Source: Acidimicrobiaceae bacterium
GTDB taxonomy: Bacteria > Actinomycetota > Acidimicrobiia > Acidimicrobiales > RAAP-2
Assembly: GCA_003138855.1 (NCBI GenBank)
Contig: PLHF01000115.1
Span: 1 to 48,288 of the forward strand
Length of the DNA stretch: 48,288 nucleotides
Direction of reading: 5' to 3'
The notes beneath the pieces were generated by a model, which was not told the DNA's origin, ran no database searches, and was given only the letters and a program-made list of their open reading frames with translations. This document shows, piece after piece, positions 20,080 to 48,288 of this stretch (position 1 is its first letter; each line of letters starts with the position of its first letter). The translations under genes and the position numbers were made by a program.

Positions 20080-21005
20080 CCTGGCCCGGACCCCTCCAGC
20101 CCGCGGGTGGGCCTGCTCGTAGGCATTGCGGAGGTGCTCCTGGCTGAGCTTTGTATAGATCTGGGTCGTGGCGATCGAGACATGGCCCAGGAGCTCCTGG
20201 ACCACGCGGATATCGGCCCCGTGCGCCAGCATGTGGCTGGCGCAGGAGTGCCGCAGCACGTGGGGGCTGACCACCGTGCCCAGCCCGGCCTGCTCGGCGC
20301 GGTGGCTCACGATGGCCCACGCCCCCTGGCGGCTCAGGCGACCCCCGCGGGTGTTGAGGAAGACCGCCTCGGAGTCGCTCCGCCGCGCCCACCGGGCCGG
20401 GGCGAGGCGGGGCCGCCCGGAGACCGAGAGCCACCGGTCGAGGGCAAAACGGGCAGGGCCGCCCAGAGGGACCAGCCGCTCCTTGGCCCCCTTGCCGAAC
20501 ACCCGGAGGAGGCCATCGTCGCCCTGGACATCGATGAGCGAGAGCCCGACCACCTCGGAGATGCGTGCCCCGGTGCCGTAGAGGAGTTCGAGGAGGGCCC
20601 GGTCCCGCAGGTCGACGGGTTCTGACCCGCCCACCTGCTCGAGGAGCAGCAACACCTGGCGCTCCTCGAGGGCCTTCGGGAGACGTCGGGGCAGGCGGGG
20701 GGACCGCACGTCCACCGTCGGGTCGTCGGCGATGGTCCCTTCCCCCACCAAGAAGCGGTAGAGGCCGCGCAGGGCGGTGGTCGACCGGGCCACCGAGGCC
20801 GGGTTCCGCCCTCCACCCCGGAGCTCGGCCAGGTAGCGCTCGATGGCATCGGGGCCGGCGTCGAGCGGTTCGACCCCGGCGTTCCGGGCCCAGTGCTCCC
20901 AGGCCCCGATGTCCCGCCGGTAGGCGGCCAGGGTGTTGCGCGACCGCCCCTTCTCCACGGCCAACCAGGACAGGTACTCTTCCGCACCGGTCGACAGGGG
21001 CTGGT

Positions 21006-21009
<4 letters not shown>
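20077..21009 (-). CDS. xerD: Site-specific tyrosine recombinase XerD
   Basis: The 310-residue integrase-family protein has an N-terminal SAM-like DNA-binding domain (LSWLAVEKGRSRNTLAAYRRDI) and all catalytic residues: Arg in GARISEVVGL, HxxR in SPHVLRHSCASHML, His in LLGHVSIATTQIYT and the nucleophilic Tyr in QIYT. Length and context beside a Nudix gene and pyrG, and near scpAB, match XerD rather than a phage integrase. The GTG at 21009 overlaps the Nudix stop as GTGA. Its role would be dimer resolution at dif; no dif site was recognised here. Confidence 0.9.
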
Positions 21010-23292
<2,283 letters not shown>

Positions 23293-36659: not shown

Positions 36660-36704
36660 CCAGCCCCACCCCCGGCCGCCGTGGCGGGCCGGGGGTGGGG
36701 CTGG
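36660..36704. terminator. Strong 18-bp hairpin, terminator-like
   Basis: A perfect inverted repeat of 18 bp (arms 36660-36677 and 36687-36704, nine-base loop, arm starting CCAGCCCCACCCCCGG) lies between the minus-strand two-membrane-helix copy ending at 36786 and the glutaredoxin-like gene. It probably ends transcription of the former; there is no T tract. Confidence 0.6.
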
Positions 36705-36785
36705 TCGGGACGTCCGTAGTGACCTGTGCACCTGCGCTCGGTCGTCCCGGGCTGCAGCGGTCGTGCGGGCAGATCGAGACGGGTC

Positions 36786-37334
36786 TCAGATCTCTGCTTC
36801 GTCCGGTGTCCTGCGCAAGTGGATGAAGCCGAGGATGGTGAGGATCAGCATGATCGCTGCGAAGACGAAGCAGGTGATTGCCGCGTACAGGGCGATCTGT
36901 CCCATCTTCCAGAAGGCGTAGGCCTCGAGAAGGAGGCCTCGCAGCGTGGTCCCTTGGAACACGGTCTGGACCTTGGCCTCGGCCGCTGTGTACTGAGGGG
37001 AACCCTTGGGGTATGCCATGGCCTCTGCGCTCAGCTGCGAGTAGGTCTTGCCACCGCCGATCTCCTGGAGATGGACGGCGATGAAGTGGTCCGCGTAGGC
37101 CTCGGCCTGCTTGCCGGTGACCAGCGATTGGCCCGCGTACTGCTGCAGGTACGGGAGCATCCCGGGGGTGATCTCGGTGCCGGGCTTGGCAGCAGGCGAG
37201 GGAAGCCGCTGCAGCTGCGTCCGACTGATCTGAGGGACTCCGGTAGGGCTCGGGGATTCCCTACCGGAAATCTTCCGGTCACCATGGACTTGTCTTGTCC
37301 ACACTGCCTCGATGGTGGCCGGTTCCAATCGCAC
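36786..37334 (-). pseudogene. Truncated copy (C-terminal part) of a two-TM family protein
   Basis: From about residue 35 this reading frame matches the intact gene at 39033-39623: GTEITPGMLPYLQQYAG versus GTEITPSMIPSVSMYAG, QAEAYADHFIAVHL versus QAKAWADDFIAVHL, and GTTLRGLLLEAYAF in both, followed by the same C-terminal membrane helix. The first 35 residues here are hydrophilic and unrelated, and the N-terminal membrane helix of the family is missing in all frames. The break in similarity coincides with inverted repeats at 37240-37279. It is probably a 5'-truncated remnant; expression from a later start cannot be excluded. Confidence 0.7.
37240..37279. repeat. Two adjacent inverted repeats at the truncation point
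   Basis: CCGGTAGGG (37240-37248) pairs with CCCTACCGG (37259-37267), and ACCGGAA (37263-37269) pairs with TTCCGGT (37273-37279). The two overlapping palindromes lie exactly where the truncated copy loses similarity to its intact relative. Confidence 0.65.
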
Positions 37335-37441
37335 GGCTGCGTAGGTCCCTTTCGCCTAGCAGCCCTGCGCTGCTCCGTTTACCCCACACACCGTCGAGCA
37401 CATTGAAACCGGCGCAGTTTGATGGGTGTTGCGCCGGTTTC
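37331..37441 (+). repeat. Left copy of ~110-nt direct repeat ending in a hairpin
   Basis: This stretch is similar to 38796-38908. Shared blocks are GCACGG, a CCTTTC...CTA...CAGCCCTGC run, CTGCTCCG, CCCC...CACCGT...GAGC...CAT. It ends in a perfect 12-bp stem (37405-37416 with 37430-37441; arm GAAACCGGCGCA), whose sequence differs from that of the other copy while the pairing is kept. It flanks a short cargo of reading frames together with the right copy. Confidence 0.65.
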
Positions 37442-37474
37442 TTCGTGTCCAAAAGCTACCGTGCCACGGAAGCA

Positions 37475-37570
37475 ATGGCGTGCGCTACGGAAGTGGCGGA
37501 ACGCCGAGACAGCTGGCTGAGCAACCGTGAGTTGATCGCGGGTTTTGTTGCCGGGGCCTTAGAGGAATGA
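37475..37570 (+). CDS. Very small hypothetical protein coupled to next gene
   Basis: The 31-codon frame (MACATEVAERRDSWLSNRELIAGFVAGALEE) ends in TGA that overlaps the following ATG at 37567 as ATGA. That overlap is its only support. In-frame GTG at 37445 would add ten residues. No similarity is recognised, and it may serve only to bring ribosomes to the next gene. Confidence 0.4.
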   Translation: MACATEVAERRDSWLSNRELIAGFVAGALEE

Positions 37571-38105
37571 CCTCGCACCCAGCTGCCTATTGGGTGGGGT
37601 TCGGTCTGACCATTGCCGGTATCCTCACGACCGCGTTGGGCGTCTATCTAACCGTCGGGGATTCACTAAGCGACTTGGGATCTGGGGAATCACCAAGGAT
37701 TGGGCCATACGGGTCGCGGCACGAACTCGATCGATATTGGCAAAGATCCGTGGCAAAAGGGGATCGGTTCAGGTTCATCCAGCAGCAGCTACGGGCACAG
37801 CAACAGCCAGTGCAAGCGCAGAGGCAACCATCATCCCGACCGGAGGCTCAACCGGAGAGAAGGTGGACTGGTTGATGAAGGAGATACTCAAAGTCGAGGA
37901 AAGGCTGGGGCAGACGACGCGCGATCTGAGAACGGAAACCAGCGAGAGAAAGACGAGTGATGCCAACGAGACTCGAACCAGAGAAGCCGAGATTTCTGAT
38001 GTGCGTGACCACATCGAAGGTCTGGCTGGCCACGTTCTCTGGATTAGTGCCATCGGTGTGGGACTGCTAGTCGTCGGCCAGTTCATCACGGCATTCTGGG
38101 GATAG
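37567..38105 (+). pseudogene. Two-TM coiled-coil membrane protein with a probable frameshift
   Basis: The first frame gives a good N-terminal membrane helix (AAYWVGFGLTIAGILTTALGVYLT, residues 5-29) and then turns into low-quality Gln/Pro/Arg-rich sequence ending at 37875. The next frame, open from before that point to 38105, reads GFTKRLGIWGITKDWAIRVAARTRSILAKI, an Ala/Thr linker, a charged coiled coil (KEILKVEERLGQTTRDLRTETSERK) and a second helix (HVLWISAIGVGLLVVGQFITAF). One missing G in the run at about 37659-37662 would join them into a protein of about 180 residues. The family is not recognised. Confidence 0.55.
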
Positions 38106-38173
38106 GGCACGAGCCAACGCTCGGGATCTACGCTGCGGCAACGGTCATCGTGACGGCAGGGAGTGGTGCTCAC

Positions 38174-38698
38174 ATGTTCGGTCGCAAAAAGGCAGCAGCG
38201 GTTCAGGAGCCCTTGAAGGCGCTGGTCCTGAGAGTCGAGCCGGATGACGGATCATTCAGCGGTGACAATGGCACGGAGATCGTGGTGCGCGGGCACAGAG
38301 TATTCACTCCCGACGGTGAGATGCTCAGCCACTCCGAGGACGGCGCAGTCGCCGAGGGCATCTTCTACTTCCGCATCGCGGGGGCAACCCACCATCGAGC
38401 CGCCGACAAACTCGACGGGGACACCTTCTCGCAGGTTCTACTGCGGCACCGACCCGACAACGCCCACGACCCAAACGCCATCGAAATTCTCAATCAGAGC
38501 GGCGGGGAGGTCATCGGCTTCGTCCCAGCGAAGCTCGCCCCCCACATGCTTCCGGCGCTGATCACCGTCACCAGCAATGGCGAGACAACAACTGGCTCCG
38601 TGGGCCTGGTGGCGAAGACGTTCCTACGTGGCGGTCGCGTCATCGGTGGAGAGGTGCTGGTCATCGGGAAGGGTTACGAACTCCAAGTTACGGAGTGA
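38174..38698 (+). CDS. HIRAN-domain protein
   Basis: A 174-residue protein. The central part (FYFRIAGATHHRAADKLDGDTFSQVLLRHRPDNAHDPNAIEIL, then GGEVIGFVPAKLAPHMLPAL) matches the HIRAN domain, a small OB-like fold that binds single-stranded 3' DNA ends and is found in HLTF-type remodellers and stand-alone in bacteria, often near mobile DNA. No helicase or nuclease motif accompanies it. AGGGAG lies about 11 bases before the ATG. An in-frame GTG at 38150 would add eight residues. It is the best-preserved gene between the two ~110-nt repeats. Confidence 0.75.
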   Translation: MFGRKKAAAVQEPLKALVLRVEPDDGSFSGDNGTEIVVRGHRVFTPDGEMLSHSEDGAVAEGIFYFRIAGATHHRAADKLDGDTFSQVLLRHRPDNAHDPNAIEILNQSGGEVIGFVPAKLAPHMLPALITVTSNGETTTGSVGLVAKTFLRGGRVIGGEVLVIGKGYELQVTE

Positions 38699-38733
38699 TG
38701 CTCGCTCCTCGATCCCCCCTGTGCCGTGATCTA

Positions 38734-38788
38734 CCGGTAACCAGGTTCAAGGTGCCCTAGTCATCACCTCTCTTCACCTAGTTACCGG
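38734..38788. repeat. Nested inverted repeat (possible cruciform)
   Basis: CCGGTAAC (38734-38741) pairs with GTTACCGG (38781-38788). After one mismatch AGGT (38743-38746) pairs with ACCT (38776-38779), and inside the loop AGGTG (38750-38754) pairs with CACCT (38765-38769). The outer arms CCGGTA/TACCGG are shared with the inverted repeat at 37240-37267 on the other side of the cargo. Confidence 0.6.
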
Positions 38789-38795
38789 ACCACCC

Positions 38796-38908
38796 GCACG
38801 GTTGTAGGTAGTTACCTCCTTTCCCCCTACAGCCCTGCCCTGCTCCGGTGTGTGCCCCGCACCGTTGAGCGCATAGACCGGCACCAGTTCGCACGGCTGG
38901 TGCCGGTC
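38796..38908 (+). repeat. Right copy of ~110-nt direct repeat ending in a hairpin
   Basis: This is the partner of 37331-37441. Its terminal stem is a perfect 12 bp (38876-38887 with 38897-38908; arm GACCGGCACCAG) with a nine-base loop. Conserved flanks with a changed but still paired stem indicate that the structure is under selection, as RNA or as folded single-stranded DNA. Confidence 0.65.
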
Positions 38909-38916
38909 ACCTTCTG

Positions 38917-38956
38917 AACGAAACATGCCGCCCCCGTAAGGGCGGCATGTTTCGTT
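38917..38956. terminator. Bidirectional Rho-independent terminator
   Basis: A perfect 17-bp stem (arms 38917-38933 and 38940-38956, arm AACGAAACATGCCGCCC, six-base loop) ends in TTT on the plus strand and has AAA on the other side of the arm, so it can work in both directions. It would end the minus-strand two-TM gene (stop at 39033) and rightward transcripts from the cargo. Confidence 0.8.
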
Positions 38957-39032
38957 TGGTGAAGCTGCCGAGCGGAGCAGGGGAGGCAATGGTCCCCATG
39001 CTCGGCGCCCGGCATGGCGCCGTTCTTTTCTG

Positions 39033-39623
39033 CTAGGAAGTTGCGGTTGTGTCGGAAAGCGTACGACTGCTTGGCTCTTCCTTGCGCGCATGGAGGAAGC
39101 CGAGTACGACGAGTATCGCCATCAATCCGGCAAGGATGAATGCTCCGATTGCGGCCCATGTGGCGACCTCACCGAAGACGCTGAATGCGTAGGCTTCCAA
39201 CAGCAGGCCACGAAGTGTCGTTCCCTCAAACGAGGTAGTCACCTCTGCAGCGAGCGCCTTGTTCGTCGGATCGGCTCGCGCCGCTGTTGATACAGCGTCG
39301 TACACGCCACCGTAGGGCATTTCGCTCAGGTGAACGGCAATGAAGTCGTCGGCCCATGCCTTAGCTTGAGGACCAGTCAACAGCTGCTGACCCGCGTACA
39401 TCGACACGGAGGGAATCATGCTTGGAGTGATCTCGGTGCCGGCCTTAGCGTGCGCGAATGCCGATGCAGCTGGGAACGTGATGTCCTGCTTCGCCAGCTG
39501 GCTGTGGACATTGCTGTTTGTGAACGATGCCGCCCACAAACCCAAAGCTCCCGCTGCCAGTAATGCAACGACAACAATTGCGCCAGTGCCAGCGATGAGT
39601 AGGTCTATTGTTCTACGATCCAC
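39033..39623 (-). CDS. Two-TM protein of unknown function (intact family copy)
   Basis: The 196-residue protein has an N-terminal helix (LLIAGTGAIVVVALLAAGALGLWAASF), an extracytoplasmic domain with GTEITPSMIPS, YAGQQLLTGPQAKAWADDFIAVHL and FEGTTLRGLLLEAYAF, and a C-terminal helix (WAAIGAFILAGLMAILVVLGFLHARK). I recognise this as a recurrent actinobacterial type without known function. The GTG start has AGGA eight bases upstream, and TAGAGT at 39653-39658 is a possible -10 box. Partial relatives lie on both sides. Confidence 0.7.
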   Translation of the reverse strand: MDRRTIDLLIAGTGAIVVVALLAAGALGLWAASFTNSNVHSQLAKQDITFPAASAFAHAKAGTEITPSMIPSVSMYAGQQLLTGPQAKAWADDFIAVHLSEMPYGGVYDAVSTAARADPTNKALAAEVTTSFEGTTLRGLLLEAYAFSVFGEVATWAAIGAFILAGLMAILVVLGFLHARKEEPSSRTLSDTTATS

Positions 39624-39760
39624 AGGTATTTCCTTTCGTTTGGAGGCTCAAGACTCTACCGGTCTGGCCGGCTTCACCTTTCGCCCGTGTGCCCACCACT
39701 CTGAACGTCCACCAGACGCCTAGTCCCTGGTCAGACGATTTTTTTAAGAAGGGTCCTTTT

Positions 39761-39880
39761 TCAGACATTTGAGTTGGCGAAGCTGTAGGCCCACATGCCC
39801 AGACATCCAGCCACGATCAGAAAGACCGTCAGTGCGGCTCCGACGGCAGTCAATATTGCATCGAAGGTCTTGCGTTTCAC
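39761..39880 (-). CDS. Single-TM microprotein matching the N-terminus of the two-TM family
   Basis: The 39-codon frame starts at GTG 39880 with AAAGG eight bases upstream and encodes MKRKTFDAILTAVGAALTVFL, IVAGCLGMWAYSFANSNV, then TGA. It aligns with the first 39 residues of the neighbouring intact protein (MDRRTIDLLIAGTGAIVVVAL...GLWAASFTNSNV) and stops exactly where the extracytoplasmic domain would begin; the bases that follow do not encode the rest. It is either a truncated gene or a small membrane protein in its own right. Confidence 0.6.
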   Translation of the reverse strand: MKRKTFDAILTAVGAALTVFLIVAGCLGMWAYSFANSNV

Positions 39881-39953
39881 GATTCACGCCTTTCTTCGTC
39901 TCGTCGTGCCATTCCGGGTGTCCCTGGATGGCACGATGGTAACTTTAGCTATG

Positions 39954-39969
39954 TGTGAACATGTTCACA
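39954..39969. promoter_or_regulatory. 16-bp perfect palindrome, operator-like
   Basis: TGTGAACATGTTCACA is a perfect palindrome in an A+T-richer stretch about 75 bases upstream of the 39-codon gene and overlaps the likely -35 area of a leftward promoter (TAAAGT read on the minus strand just downstream). It looks like the site of a dimeric repressor. The half-sites are spaced differently from actinobacterial LexA boxes. Confidence 0.55.
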
Positions 39970-40121
39970 TAGGGCCAAACGTCCCGAAACGCCTCGTTCG
40001 ATGAGGGCCGTCGACGGGTGTCGATCGAAGCCCTTGGCGCCCTGAAGACGCTGGCCAGCGCGGCCCGGGTCGACCGCAGCCGCGCGATCACGCCGTCGAC
40101 GTCAGGACTGGGAGCCCGGGT

Positions 40122-45562: not shown

Positions 45563-45722
45563 CTCGCCCTTGCGACGAGAGGGCGGTCGCGGCTGGGCAA
45601 TGAACCCGCTGCCCGTCAGCCACGGATCCGAGCCGTTGATGGGGTGGTTGCCGCCACCCAACGTCGCATCAGGGACATCGGCGATGATCCAGGTGCATGG
45701 AGGCGTGCGTCGCCACCGCCGC

Positions 45723-48288
45723 CTACCATCCGAATGCGGCGCGGGTCCCATCGGTATCGATGACGGCATACCCCGAGCTACTGGGTGAGGCGATGAGCCC
45801 CACGGCGGTGCGTCCGGAGGCGGCTCCCGAGCCGTGGAACTGGGCATCGCCGAAGGTGAACACCCCGCCGTCGGAGGCGACCATCCAGTAGCCCTGACCG
45901 TCAGGGGTGCCGGCGATGCCGACGATGGGCCGGTTCAGCGGCCTTCCACCCATCGATCCATGGAACTGGGCGTCTCCGAAGCTGAACACCCCGCCGTCGG
46001 AGGCGACCATCCAGTAGCCCTGACCGTCAGGGGTGCTGGCGACGCCGACGATGGGCGAATTCAACTGGTGGCCGGCCATCGAGCCGTAGTTAGCGGCCGT
46101 GCCGTAGGTGGCGAGCGAGCCGGTTGGTCCGACAATCCAATAGCCGTTGCCGTCGGGCGTGGCGGCCAGGCGGTCACCCCCAGCCAGCGCCGGGACGCCG
46201 AGCACGGTGAGGGTGAAGCTCTGGTTGGCGTCCGGGCTGGTCCCGTTGGAGGCGGTCAGGGTGATCGGGTAGCTCCCGGCGGTGCCGACGGCCGGGGTCC
46301 CGGCGATCGTGGCGGTGCCGTTGCCGTTGGCGACGAAGGTGACTCCTGCAGGCAGGGCCGCGGGATCACCCAGAGAAGGCGTGGGGTACCCGGAGGTGGT
46401 CACGGTAAAGGTGAATGCCTTGCCCACCGTGAGCGATACCGAGTTGGCGCTGGTGATGGCCGGGGCCTGATCGATGATCAGGATGAAGCTCTGGCTGGCG
46501 GTGCCGGTCCCGTTGGCGGTGAGGAGAGTGAGCGGGTAGCTCTTCCCCGCGGTCCCCGCAGCCGGGGTCCCCGACAGGGTGGCGGTGCCGTTCCCGTTGT
46601 CGACGAAGGTGATGCCGTCAGGCAGCGTCCCGGACCAGCCCAGGGAGGGAGCGGGAAAGCCGGTCGACGTCACGGTGAAGCTGCCCCGGTCGCCCACCAC
46701 GAACGTGGTCGAGGCGGCGCTGGTGATGTGTGGGCTGTTGCCGACGATGATCGAAAGGGTCTGGGTGGCACTCGGCGTGATCTTGTTGTCGGCGGTGATG
46801 GTCAGGTTGGTCGTGGCGGAGACCGTCGGGGTTCCCGCGAGCAGGGCGGTGCCGTTGCCGTTGTCGGTGAAGGTGAGCCCGGCGGGCAGGGCCCCGGTCT
46901 CGGTGATCGAGGCAGGGGGGGCGCCGGTGGTGGTCACGGCGAAGGACCCGGGCTCGTTCAGGGTGAAGTACGCGGTGGCCCCGCTGGTGATGACCGGAGC
47001 CGCGCTCGAGGCCACGGTGATTGCCAGGTTGAGGGTGGCCATGGAGCCCGACGAGTTGGTGGCCGAGATGGTCACCGGGTAGTTCCCGACGCTGCCGGCG
47101 GCCGGGGTGCCGGCGATGGTGGCGCTGCCGGTGGCCGGGGTGGGGGCGGCGAAGGTCAGCCCTGCGGGCAGGGTCCCGGTCTCGGTGATGGTCGCCGCCG
47201 GATAACCGGTGGTGGTCACGGTGTAGGTGCCCGCCACCCCGGTGTAGAAGCTCGCCGTGGCGGCGCTGGTGATGGTCGGCGCCTCCGAGTTGGTCAAGGT
47301 GAAGGCCTGGGTGGCATTCGGGGTGACCCCGTTGGCTGCCGTGATGGTGATCGGATAGAGCCCACCGCTGCCCTTGGCCGCGGTGCCGGCCAGGGTGGCC
47401 GTCCCGTTGCCGTTGTCGACGAAGGTCATCCCGGCGGGCAGGGCCCCGGTCTCGGTGATGGCCGGTGCCGGCTCACCGGTGGTGTACACCGTGGCACTGA
47501 AGGCCGTCCCCACGATGGAGCTGGCCGAGTTGGCGCTGATGATGGTCGGAGCGACGTGCTCGGTGAGGGTCAGCGACGCACCGGCGGCGATGGTGGTCCA
47601 GGTGGACAGCTCACCGCCGTAGGACTGGCCGAAGGCCGCTCCCCCGACGGTGGTGCCCTGCGGGGTGGTGACCGGGACGCTGACCGGCGAGCCCGAGGCG
47701 TTGGTCACGGTGACCACGCCGTTGGTCTCGCTGGCCTTCACCGATCCGGCCGTCTCGGCGGCGGCCCAGGCGGACTGCTGGCCGAGGACCTGGGCCTCGG
47801 TGGTGTCGGTCATCTGGACCAGCGGTGCCGCGGTGCTCGTCCAGGCGTCGTACTGGGTCAGCATGTTGTTGAGCAGGGTCAACAGGGTGTACCCGTTTGC
47901 CGGATCGCTGCCACCGATCAGGTTGGTCTGGTGCGCGTAGCCCACCCGGGGGTTGTTGGCCAGCACGTGGCTCAACATGATGCGGGACTCCGAGGCCAGG
48001 AGGGAGGACTCGGTGGCCGGGGTGCTGAGGCAGGTGGTGGCCGACGAGGCGTCGCAGTGCCCCGTCTCGGTGGGGTAGGTGGCATCGCCGAGCTTGGTGC
48101 CGGGGGCCACGTAGAGGGTGTTGTACTCGTTGAGCTCGTCGTTCCAGTTGGAGGCGTTGTAGTAGATGTTGGACGGGTAGCGCGGGGCCGAGGTGGCCGT
48201 CGAGGATCCCGAGGTCAGCGAGTACTGGTTGGGCTGGCGGGAGGCGTCGGTGGCGAAGGTGGTGATGCCGGTTGCGGCCAGGGCCGCT
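45723..48288 (-). CDS. Partial Agd3-like exopolysaccharide deacetylase with Ig-like and GYWMVASDGG repeats
   Basis: The frame is open through the right edge of the window, so the N-terminus is missing; at least 854 residues are present. The visible start of the protein (TFATDASRQPNQYS, PRYPSNIYYNASNWNDELNEYNTLY, RVGYAHQTNLIGG and a GSPVSVPVTTPQG C-terminal block) resembles the end of the catalytic and C-terminal regions of Agd3-type (CE18) deacetylases. Five He_PIG-type Ig-like repeats of about 85-90 residues follow (each ITSA...TETGALPAGLTFxDNGNGTATLAGTP), then about three and a half GYWMVASDGGVFxFGDAQFHGS repeats common in Acidimicrobiia. It is presumably extracellular. The deacetylase call is by recalled pattern and needs the missing part. 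Confidence 0.65.
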   Translation of the reverse strand, partial: AALAATGITTFATDASRQPNQYSLTSGSSTATSAPRYPSNIYYNASNWNDELNEYNTLYVAPGTKLGDATYPTETGHCDASSATTCLSTPATESSLLASESRIMLSHVLANNPRVGYAHQTNLIGGSDPANGYTLLTLLNNMLTQYDAWTSTAAPLVQMTDTTEAQVLGQQSAWAAAETAGSVKASETNGVVTVTNASGSPVSVPVTTPQGTTVGGAAFGQSYGGELSTWTTIAAGASLTLTEHVAPTIISANSASSIVGTAFSATVYTTGEPAPAITETGALPAGMTFVDNGNGTATLAGTAAKGSGGLYPITITAANGVTPNATQAFTLTNSEAPTITSAATASFYTGVAGTYTVTTTGYPAATITETGTLPAGLTFAAPTPATGSATIAGTPAAGSVGNYPVTISATNSSGSMATLNLAITVASSAAPVITSGATAYFTLNEPGSFAVTTTGAPPASITETGALPAGLTFTDNGNGTALLAGTPTVSATTNLTITADNKITPSATQTLSIIVGNSPHITSAASTTFVVGDRGSFTVTSTGFPAPSLGWSGTLPDGITFVDNGNGTATLSGTPAAGTAGKSYPLTLLTANGTGTASQSFILIIDQAPAITSANSVSLTVGKAFTFTVTTSGYPTPSLGDPAALPAGVTFVANGNGTATIAGTPAVGTAGSYPITLTASNGTSPDANQSFTLTVLGVPALAGGDRLAATPDGNGYWIVGPTGSLATYGTAANYGSMAGHQLNSPIVGVASTPDGQGYWMVASDGGVFSFGDAQFHGSMGGRPLNRPIVGIAGTPDGQGYWMVASDGGVFTFGDAQFHGSGAASGRTAVGLIASPSSSGYAVIDTDGTRAAFGW
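45834..46085 (-). repeat. Near-identical 126-nt tandem coding repeat
   Basis: Two copies of a 126-nt unit (for example CACCCCGCCGTCGG at 45861 and again at 45987) encode consecutive 42-residue GYWMVASDGGVFxFGDAQFHGS repeats with very few base changes, which suggests recent duplication or gene conversion. Confidence 0.75.

Follow-up and report, generated by a model that had tools for sequence, protein, structure and literature searches.

Organisation of the locus

We analysed a window of 48,288 nucleotides, the whole of the stretch taken from contig PLHF01000115.1 of an Acidimicrobiaceae bacterium (assembly GCA_003138855.1). Within it a host gene, here termed gene M, lies in two pieces on either side of an insert that carries two related structured elements, copies A and B, which had been picked out in a first-pass annotation made from the sequence alone. 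The features of the locus are as follows.

36785-37193, minus strand: gene1, 3′ part of the broken host gene M, placed by DNA matches to intact relatives
37196-39763, no strand assigned: foreign DNA inserted into gene M; its left edge could fall anywhere in about 37190-37205
37240-37267, plus strand: extra inverted repeat beside copy A (37240-37248/37259-37267; CCGGTAGGG/CCCTACCGG), the one named in the first-pass annotation
37275-37322, plus strand: P0 hairpin before copy A, its stem CCGGTCACCAT/ATGGTGGCCGG made of 11 pairs, one of them G-T
37331-37441, plus strand: copy A, structured element (P1 37331-37368, P2 37371-37400, P3 37405-37441 with a perfect 12-bp stem)
37567-37875, plus strand: ORF X, 102 aa, no family; a single membrane helix at the N-terminus is probable (by eye)
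37875-38105, plus strand: ORF Y, 76 aa, no family; a coiled coil and a membrane helix at the C-terminus are probable (by eye)
38150-38698, plus strand: ORF Z, 182 aa (alternative start ATG 38174), HIRAN domain (Pfam HIRAN 6.6e-08, 32.7 bits, cut-off 24.7)
38734-38788, plus strand: P0-like hairpin before copy B, CCGGTAAC.AGGT/ACCT.GTTACCGG
38796-38908, plus strand: copy B, structured element (P1 38796-38838, P2 38841-38871, P3 38876-38908)
38917-38956, no strand assigned: palindromic hairpin between copy B and gene2, perfect 17 bp, terminator-like
39033-39623, minus strand: gene2, intact foreign gene M copy, 196 aa, 84% DNA identity over 39015-39669 to genome G052
39765-39880, minus strand: gene1, 5′ part of the broken host gene M, ending after ...NSNV (matches span 39764-39879; GTG start 39880 by eye)

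A foreign insert splits a conserved gene

Gene M belongs to a membrane-protein family present in 69 of the 100 family genomes examined, this genome included, and is unbroken in the relatives G011, G001, G009 and G024. Because its two pieces in the window match parts of the one-piece gene of these four relatives (77-80% DNA identity over 36785-37193 and 72-83% over 39765-39880), we consider the host gene to be interrupted. The relatives have 52-58 nt (72 in G009, which has a shorter match) without counterpart in the window, where about 2.57 kb stands instead, and comparison with the four intact genes places the boundaries of the insert at about 37.19-37.21 kb and 39.76 kb. Between these boundaries lie gene2, copy B, X-Y-Z and copy A; both copies are thus internal rather than at the ends, with copy A about 130 nt from the left edge. 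The 1.3-kb cassette of the first-pass annotation was therefore drawn too narrowly, the incoming unit of ~2.57 kb being larger than the A-to-B interval. It broke a conserved gene M yet brought an intact gene M copy with it.

The composition of the insert differs from that of its surroundings. The GC content of 37205-39763 is 0.596 vs 0.688 for the window, with a lower value in 4 of 458 stretches of equal length, and the 26 stretch starts listed with a GC content under 0.62 all fall in 36.6-39.1 kb. X, Y, Z and gene2 have GC3 values of 0.59-0.74 and five host genes values of 0.80-0.87. No terminal inverted repeats were seen by eye at the insert junctions, and the insert DNA was found in neither plasmids nor phages. 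The genome G052, whose DNA matches gene2, is labelled a different genus of the family; on its contig 66 (L124 3510-3890) gene M is shortened and apparently decaying, while another of its contigs carries an intact gene M. Elsewhere in the window, a tyrosine recombinase (20080-21369, minus strand; Pfam Phage_integrase 1.5e-43) lies about 16 kb from the insert, and a long repetitive region resembling secreted repeat proteins occupies 45700-48288 (minus strand), with GYW-type repeats similar by eye to those in the L124 ORF 5656-7821.

Genes between the two copies

X and Y overlap by one base, Y starting on the stop codon of X (TGATG). Neither matched a family in Pfam, PHROGs, NCBIfam or PADLOC, and Z was the sole member of the trio above a curated cut-off in these collections; neither HipA nor a nuclease was seen beside it. 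The earlier observation that no transposase or integrase lies among the cargo agrees with our searches, as X, Y and Z gave no match to such an enzyme in the same four collections and X, Y, Z and gene2 gave no recombinase match. The HIRAN part of Z also gave a weak match to PADLOC PDC-M03B (E 2.6e-06); no literature linking PDC-M03 with HIRAN was found. Homologues of X, Y and Z were absent from plasmids, and for Z none was confirmed in viral contigs, found in the 149 other family genomes or matched in the PDB. A single phage under two accessions (Elanor) has a match to Z (31% identity over 63%, E 9e-4), as have 4 of 395 other genomes of the phylum, there within frames of 1230-1340 codons.

Copies A and B share a fold

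The two copies lie in identical orientation, 1465 nt apart from start to start. As the first-pass annotation had it, they are related stretches that each end in a perfect 12-bp stem, the stems differing in sequence (37405-37416/37430-37441, GAAACCGGCGCA, in A and 38876-38887/38897-38908, GACCGGCACCAG, in B; no mismatch in either). Local alignment of 37331-37441 with 38796-38908 gave a score of 38, reached by 0 of 1000 dinucleotide shuffles (mean 10.2, maximum 19.5), and random pairs of window stretches scored at most 18. Most alike is a common block of 30 nt with 83% identity (37348-37377 and 38818-38847). With P3 removed, P1-P2 still scored 30, and their shuffles reached at most 21; P3 alone scored 11, equalled by 1 of 1000 shuffles. 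A BLAST search with copy A in its own genome at E <= 0.001 returned only itself and not B, hence the likeness is real but not strong by sequence alone. Gapped local alignment and a structure model bring it out where plain database search does not: a model built from B alone recovered A in the window with 44.8 bits (E 5.7e-9). The longest stop-free frames over the copies are of 107 codons for A and 115 for B.

Three helices are common to A and B in the same order. The RNAalifold energy of the pair was -40.1, a value as low as which was found in 0 of 300 column shuffles (mean -12.5, minimum -24.6). Each of the 29 shared pairs is standard in A and in B alike: 21 are identical, 3 changed on one side, 5 changed on both and none is broken. 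The five double changes are compensatory changes, counted from two sequences and on a structure taken from them, and in a shuffle control 15 of 500 reached the observed pair conservation, a weak result with n=2 sequences. The first-pass annotation had read the differing stems as selection on the fold. The fold is indeed common to both copies, with double changes in 5 of 29 pairs; selection is less well shown, since the controls use two sequences and a structure derived from them and are better evidence for a common fold than for selection.

Because the structure was derived from the same two plus-strand sequences, both the pair counts and the G-U over A-C excess are biased towards that strand. 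The fold z-scores were -3.46 for A and -6.23 for B on the plus strand and -3.55 and -3.48, respectively, on the minus strand. The plus strand is thus favoured because B folds much better there; A does not discriminate.

Each copy is preceded by a hairpin. Of 1500 random 62-nt stretches taken from the window, 11 had a stem as good as the P0 of A, which makes chance unlikely, whereas the P0-like hairpin of B is weak evidence because an 8-pair stem was found in 216 of 1500. The two hairpins are not alike in sequence, and the sequences immediately 5′ of A and of B align no better than chance (a score equalled or exceeded by 267 of 1000 shuffles). The CCGGTA...TACCGG inverted repeats noted earlier are present beside both copies (at 38734-38741/38781-38788 for B) but belong to flanks that resemble each other only at chance level. 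On the 3′ side P3 is followed by TTCTTCGT in A and by ACCTTCTG in B, with no clear T run after B. A terminator scan listed neither P3, its loop limit of 8 leaving both out, and the 38917-38956 palindrome was absent from its output. No sigma-70-type promoter was found in 36700-40100, although the consensus may not fit this organism.

Search for further copies

We searched for relatives with R1, a model built from both copies, in 120 and then 172 family genomes and in 347 order genomes; these sets overlap, each includes the genome of the window, and stricter filters apply above 40 genomes. Nothing convincing was found beyond A and B. As the B-only model finds A, a relative no further removed than A is from B should have shown up in these sets, filters permitting. 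In its own genome R1 matched A, B and one weak place in an open frame on contig 47. On the minus strand it scored 21-22 bits at both P3 hairpins, as expected because P3 is palindromic.

Beyond A and B there were 12 distinct weak places, in G112, G092, G065, contig 47 of the genome itself, seven order genomes and G148. Eleven of them are covered by a stop-free frame of 330-724 codons on one strand or the other, that of G112 in a phosphoserine transaminase-like gene (by eye). The remaining place, on contig 30 of G148 (L169 1501-1602), scored 25.9 bits (E 0.0028 per genome, about 0.5 over 172) and 17.4 bits with model R2. Its longest frame is of 44 codons. It is located where an ORF judged integrase-like by eye ends, and 3 nt separate it from the end of the locus. 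It is probably a chance match.

Searches by sequence gave a similar picture. BLAST of copy B in 41 genomes (E <= 10) gave, among the matches listed, a best off-site E value of 0.0067 over 22 bases, which is at chance level, and R1 scored none of 19 loci from this search above 9.4 bits. The pattern CAGCCCTGCNCTGCTCCG occurs at 64 GTDB loci, 59 of them in a stop-free frame 150 codons long or more and 5 outside; up to E = 2 R1 gave seven matches there (best 16.7 bits), all in stop-free frames of 188-1101 codons. The same pattern was met in one viral contig, where R1 found nothing up to E = 0.1. The pattern CTGCTCCN{6,26}CCGTYGAGCRCAT occurs in 7 viral contigs and 2 class genomes and CCTTTCNCCNNNCAGCCCTGC in 1 viral contig, with a best R1 score of 12.3 bits at these places. 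All 11 places of these patterns outside GTDB fall in stop-free frames of 406-963 codons. A partial pattern run over 385 class genomes found A, B and two coding coincidences only.

Known RNA families do not account for the copies. No Rfam family reached its gathering score over the window, and no tRNA or tmRNA was found in it. Between 37200 and 39000 six weak Rfam matches were obtained up to E = 10, all under the gathering score; the best, P37, lies over the palindrome (38899-38957, E 0.0036, 29.4 bits vs a gathering score of 50). Among the matches listed, a literature search found nothing on the element. None of the genome sets searched gave a convincing independent occurrence of the A/B element. 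The covariance-model search proposed in the first-pass annotation yielded no convincing further copy in the 172 family and 347 order genomes; of the two outcomes that it named as refuting its reading, a lack of further copies is what these sets gave so far as convincing ones are concerned, while an alignment no better than shuffled sequence is contradicted.

Interpretation of the two copies

Our leading interpretation, to which we give about an even chance, is that A and B are diverged paralogues of one plus-strand structured RNA (P1, P2 and a probably terminating P3) within a foreign insert. Of the alternatives left by the first-pass annotation, the ends or recombination sites of a cassette and two copies of a structured RNA, the latter is the better supported, by the related sequence, the same fold and the compensatory changes. 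P1 and P2 are followed by the strong P3 hairpin, at which the transcript probably ends. We infer that both copies are expressed from the plus strand and came in with the remainder of the insert. Gene2, the first annotated-looking gene after B, lies on the minus strand, so that B is not an obvious leader.

The likeliest, if weakly supported, mechanism is that such RNAs would act in trans, their C-rich single-stranded loops pairing with G-rich translation starts in the manner of 6C/B11. The P1 loop of B holds ACCUCCUUUC, which reads the same as the 16S rRNA anti-Shine-Dalgarno tail, and copy A keeps CCUUUC. The C-rich loops of P1 and P2 together with these letters in B weakly suggest antisense action on ribosome-binding sites. 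Pairing of the four loops with six candidate start regions, including those of X, Y, Z, gene2 and gene1 (24 tests), was not exceptional and lends this no further support; the best, of the P1 loop of B with X and Y, lay at the 6th percentile of random stretches.

The main rival, which we consider somewhat unlikely, is that A and B are elaborate 3′-end modules, each a 3′ UTR with its terminator, B serving X-Y-Z and A a unit that lost its gene at the edge of the insert. The hairpins of B start 35 nt past the Z stop (38698) on the same strand, the terminal hairpins are strong, and the position of A about 130 nt within the left edge would allow its preceding gene to be missing. The sequence likeness of P1 and P2, however, goes well past what a terminator needs, and no convincing plus-strand gene precedes A, the ORF at 36726-37406 lying opposite gene1 and running into A.

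It is unlikely that A is instead a cis-acting attenuator leader of an X-Y-Z operon with B a stray duplicate. The terminator-like end hairpin of A does lie about 125 nt upstream of X, but the fold of B is no weaker (z -6.23) and the gene that comes after B is on the minus strand. No Rfam family reached its gathering score in the window, and the six weak matches between 37200 and 39000 include no leader element. We regard as rather improbable a wider proposal in which A, B and X-Y-Z form one horizontally moved RNA-protein system of the anti-phage or toxin-antitoxin type, where the structured RNA pair would flank and control a HIRAN sensor of DNA ends together with two small membrane proteins.

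That the copies are recombination sites or the ends of a mobile cassette, like integron attC sites or of another kind, is highly improbable. Their direct orientation, the structure kept while the sequence varies and the foreign cargo between them would fit such a role. We nevertheless rejected recombination ends because the insert breakpoints map elsewhere, outside both copies, and no second locus with such ends was found in the sets searched. Barely credible is a chance similarity of two unrelated terminators, for which the low score of P3 alone and the failure of BLAST with A to return B could be cited, against the P1-P2 score above its shuffle and random-pair maxima and the recovery of A by the B-only model.

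If the leading interpretation holds and the copies are expressed, a structured RNA without an Rfam relative at gathering score occurs twice in one foreign insert, and orphan RNAs of this kind would offer a test case for new small RNAs arriving with foreign DNA. If A and B are simply transcript ends, they are ordinary. Nothing from beyond this locus supports a function for them.

Comparison with known systems

Integron attC sites are bounded by seven-base boxes, R″ (RYYYAAC) and R′ (GTTRRRY), which are reverse complements of each other, so that a scan for both covers both strands. No such box was found in 37200-37480, and in 38690-38990 the only one was GTTGAGC at 38864, within P2 of B. The integron integrase model TIGR02249 had no match above 265 bits in the genome (assembly 93.75% complete); below this cut-off its 26 hits were partial ones to tyrosine recombinases, the best at 69.8 bits, and each of the 14 control genomes gave matches as well. 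We therefore rejected an attC identity for A and B. The earlier suggestion of recombination sites is not supported, the insert boundaries also lying outside the copies. attC sites are described as poorly conserved in sequence but kept in structure, 57-142 nt long and with AAC/GTT boundaries (PMC2727003). A and B resemble them in a structure kept over varied sequence and in a length within this range; they differ in having three separate hairpins rather than a single stem-loop, in lacking R″/R′ boxes at their ends and in lying off the insert boundaries.

The HIRAN domain of Z recalls genomic islands of gram-positive bacteria in which HIRAN and HipA genes cluster with diDNases and for which phage defence functions have been predicted (PMC11706625). 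Unlike in those islands, the neighbours X and Y match no family in the collections scanned and no HipA or nuclease is seen there, and a possible link of Z to defence is a lead only.

The 6C RNA has two hairpins whose C-rich loops hold six C residues. The candidate small RNA resembles the 6C/B11 family (RF01066) in the C-rich hairpin loops of P1 and P2 and differs from it in that the C runs are of 3 to 5 rather than six. Between 37200 and 39000 the RF01066 covariance model gave no match up to E = 10; it also had none in the genome itself at E <= 1 and was above its cut-off in 0 of 41 genomes. The 6C search may be insensitive, since as a control the model matched 2 of 14 named genomes (Corynebacterium glutamicum and Caulobacter vibrioides), and in neither did the score reach the cut-off. 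In mycobacteria, extra and somewhat different 6C copies are described on chromosomes and plasmids, in a study suggesting that they were acquired horizontally and leaving the question of duplication open (PMC9569102). In work on B11, repression of a reporter with a G-tract 5′ UTR was kept with either loop mutated and lost with both (PMC10470900).
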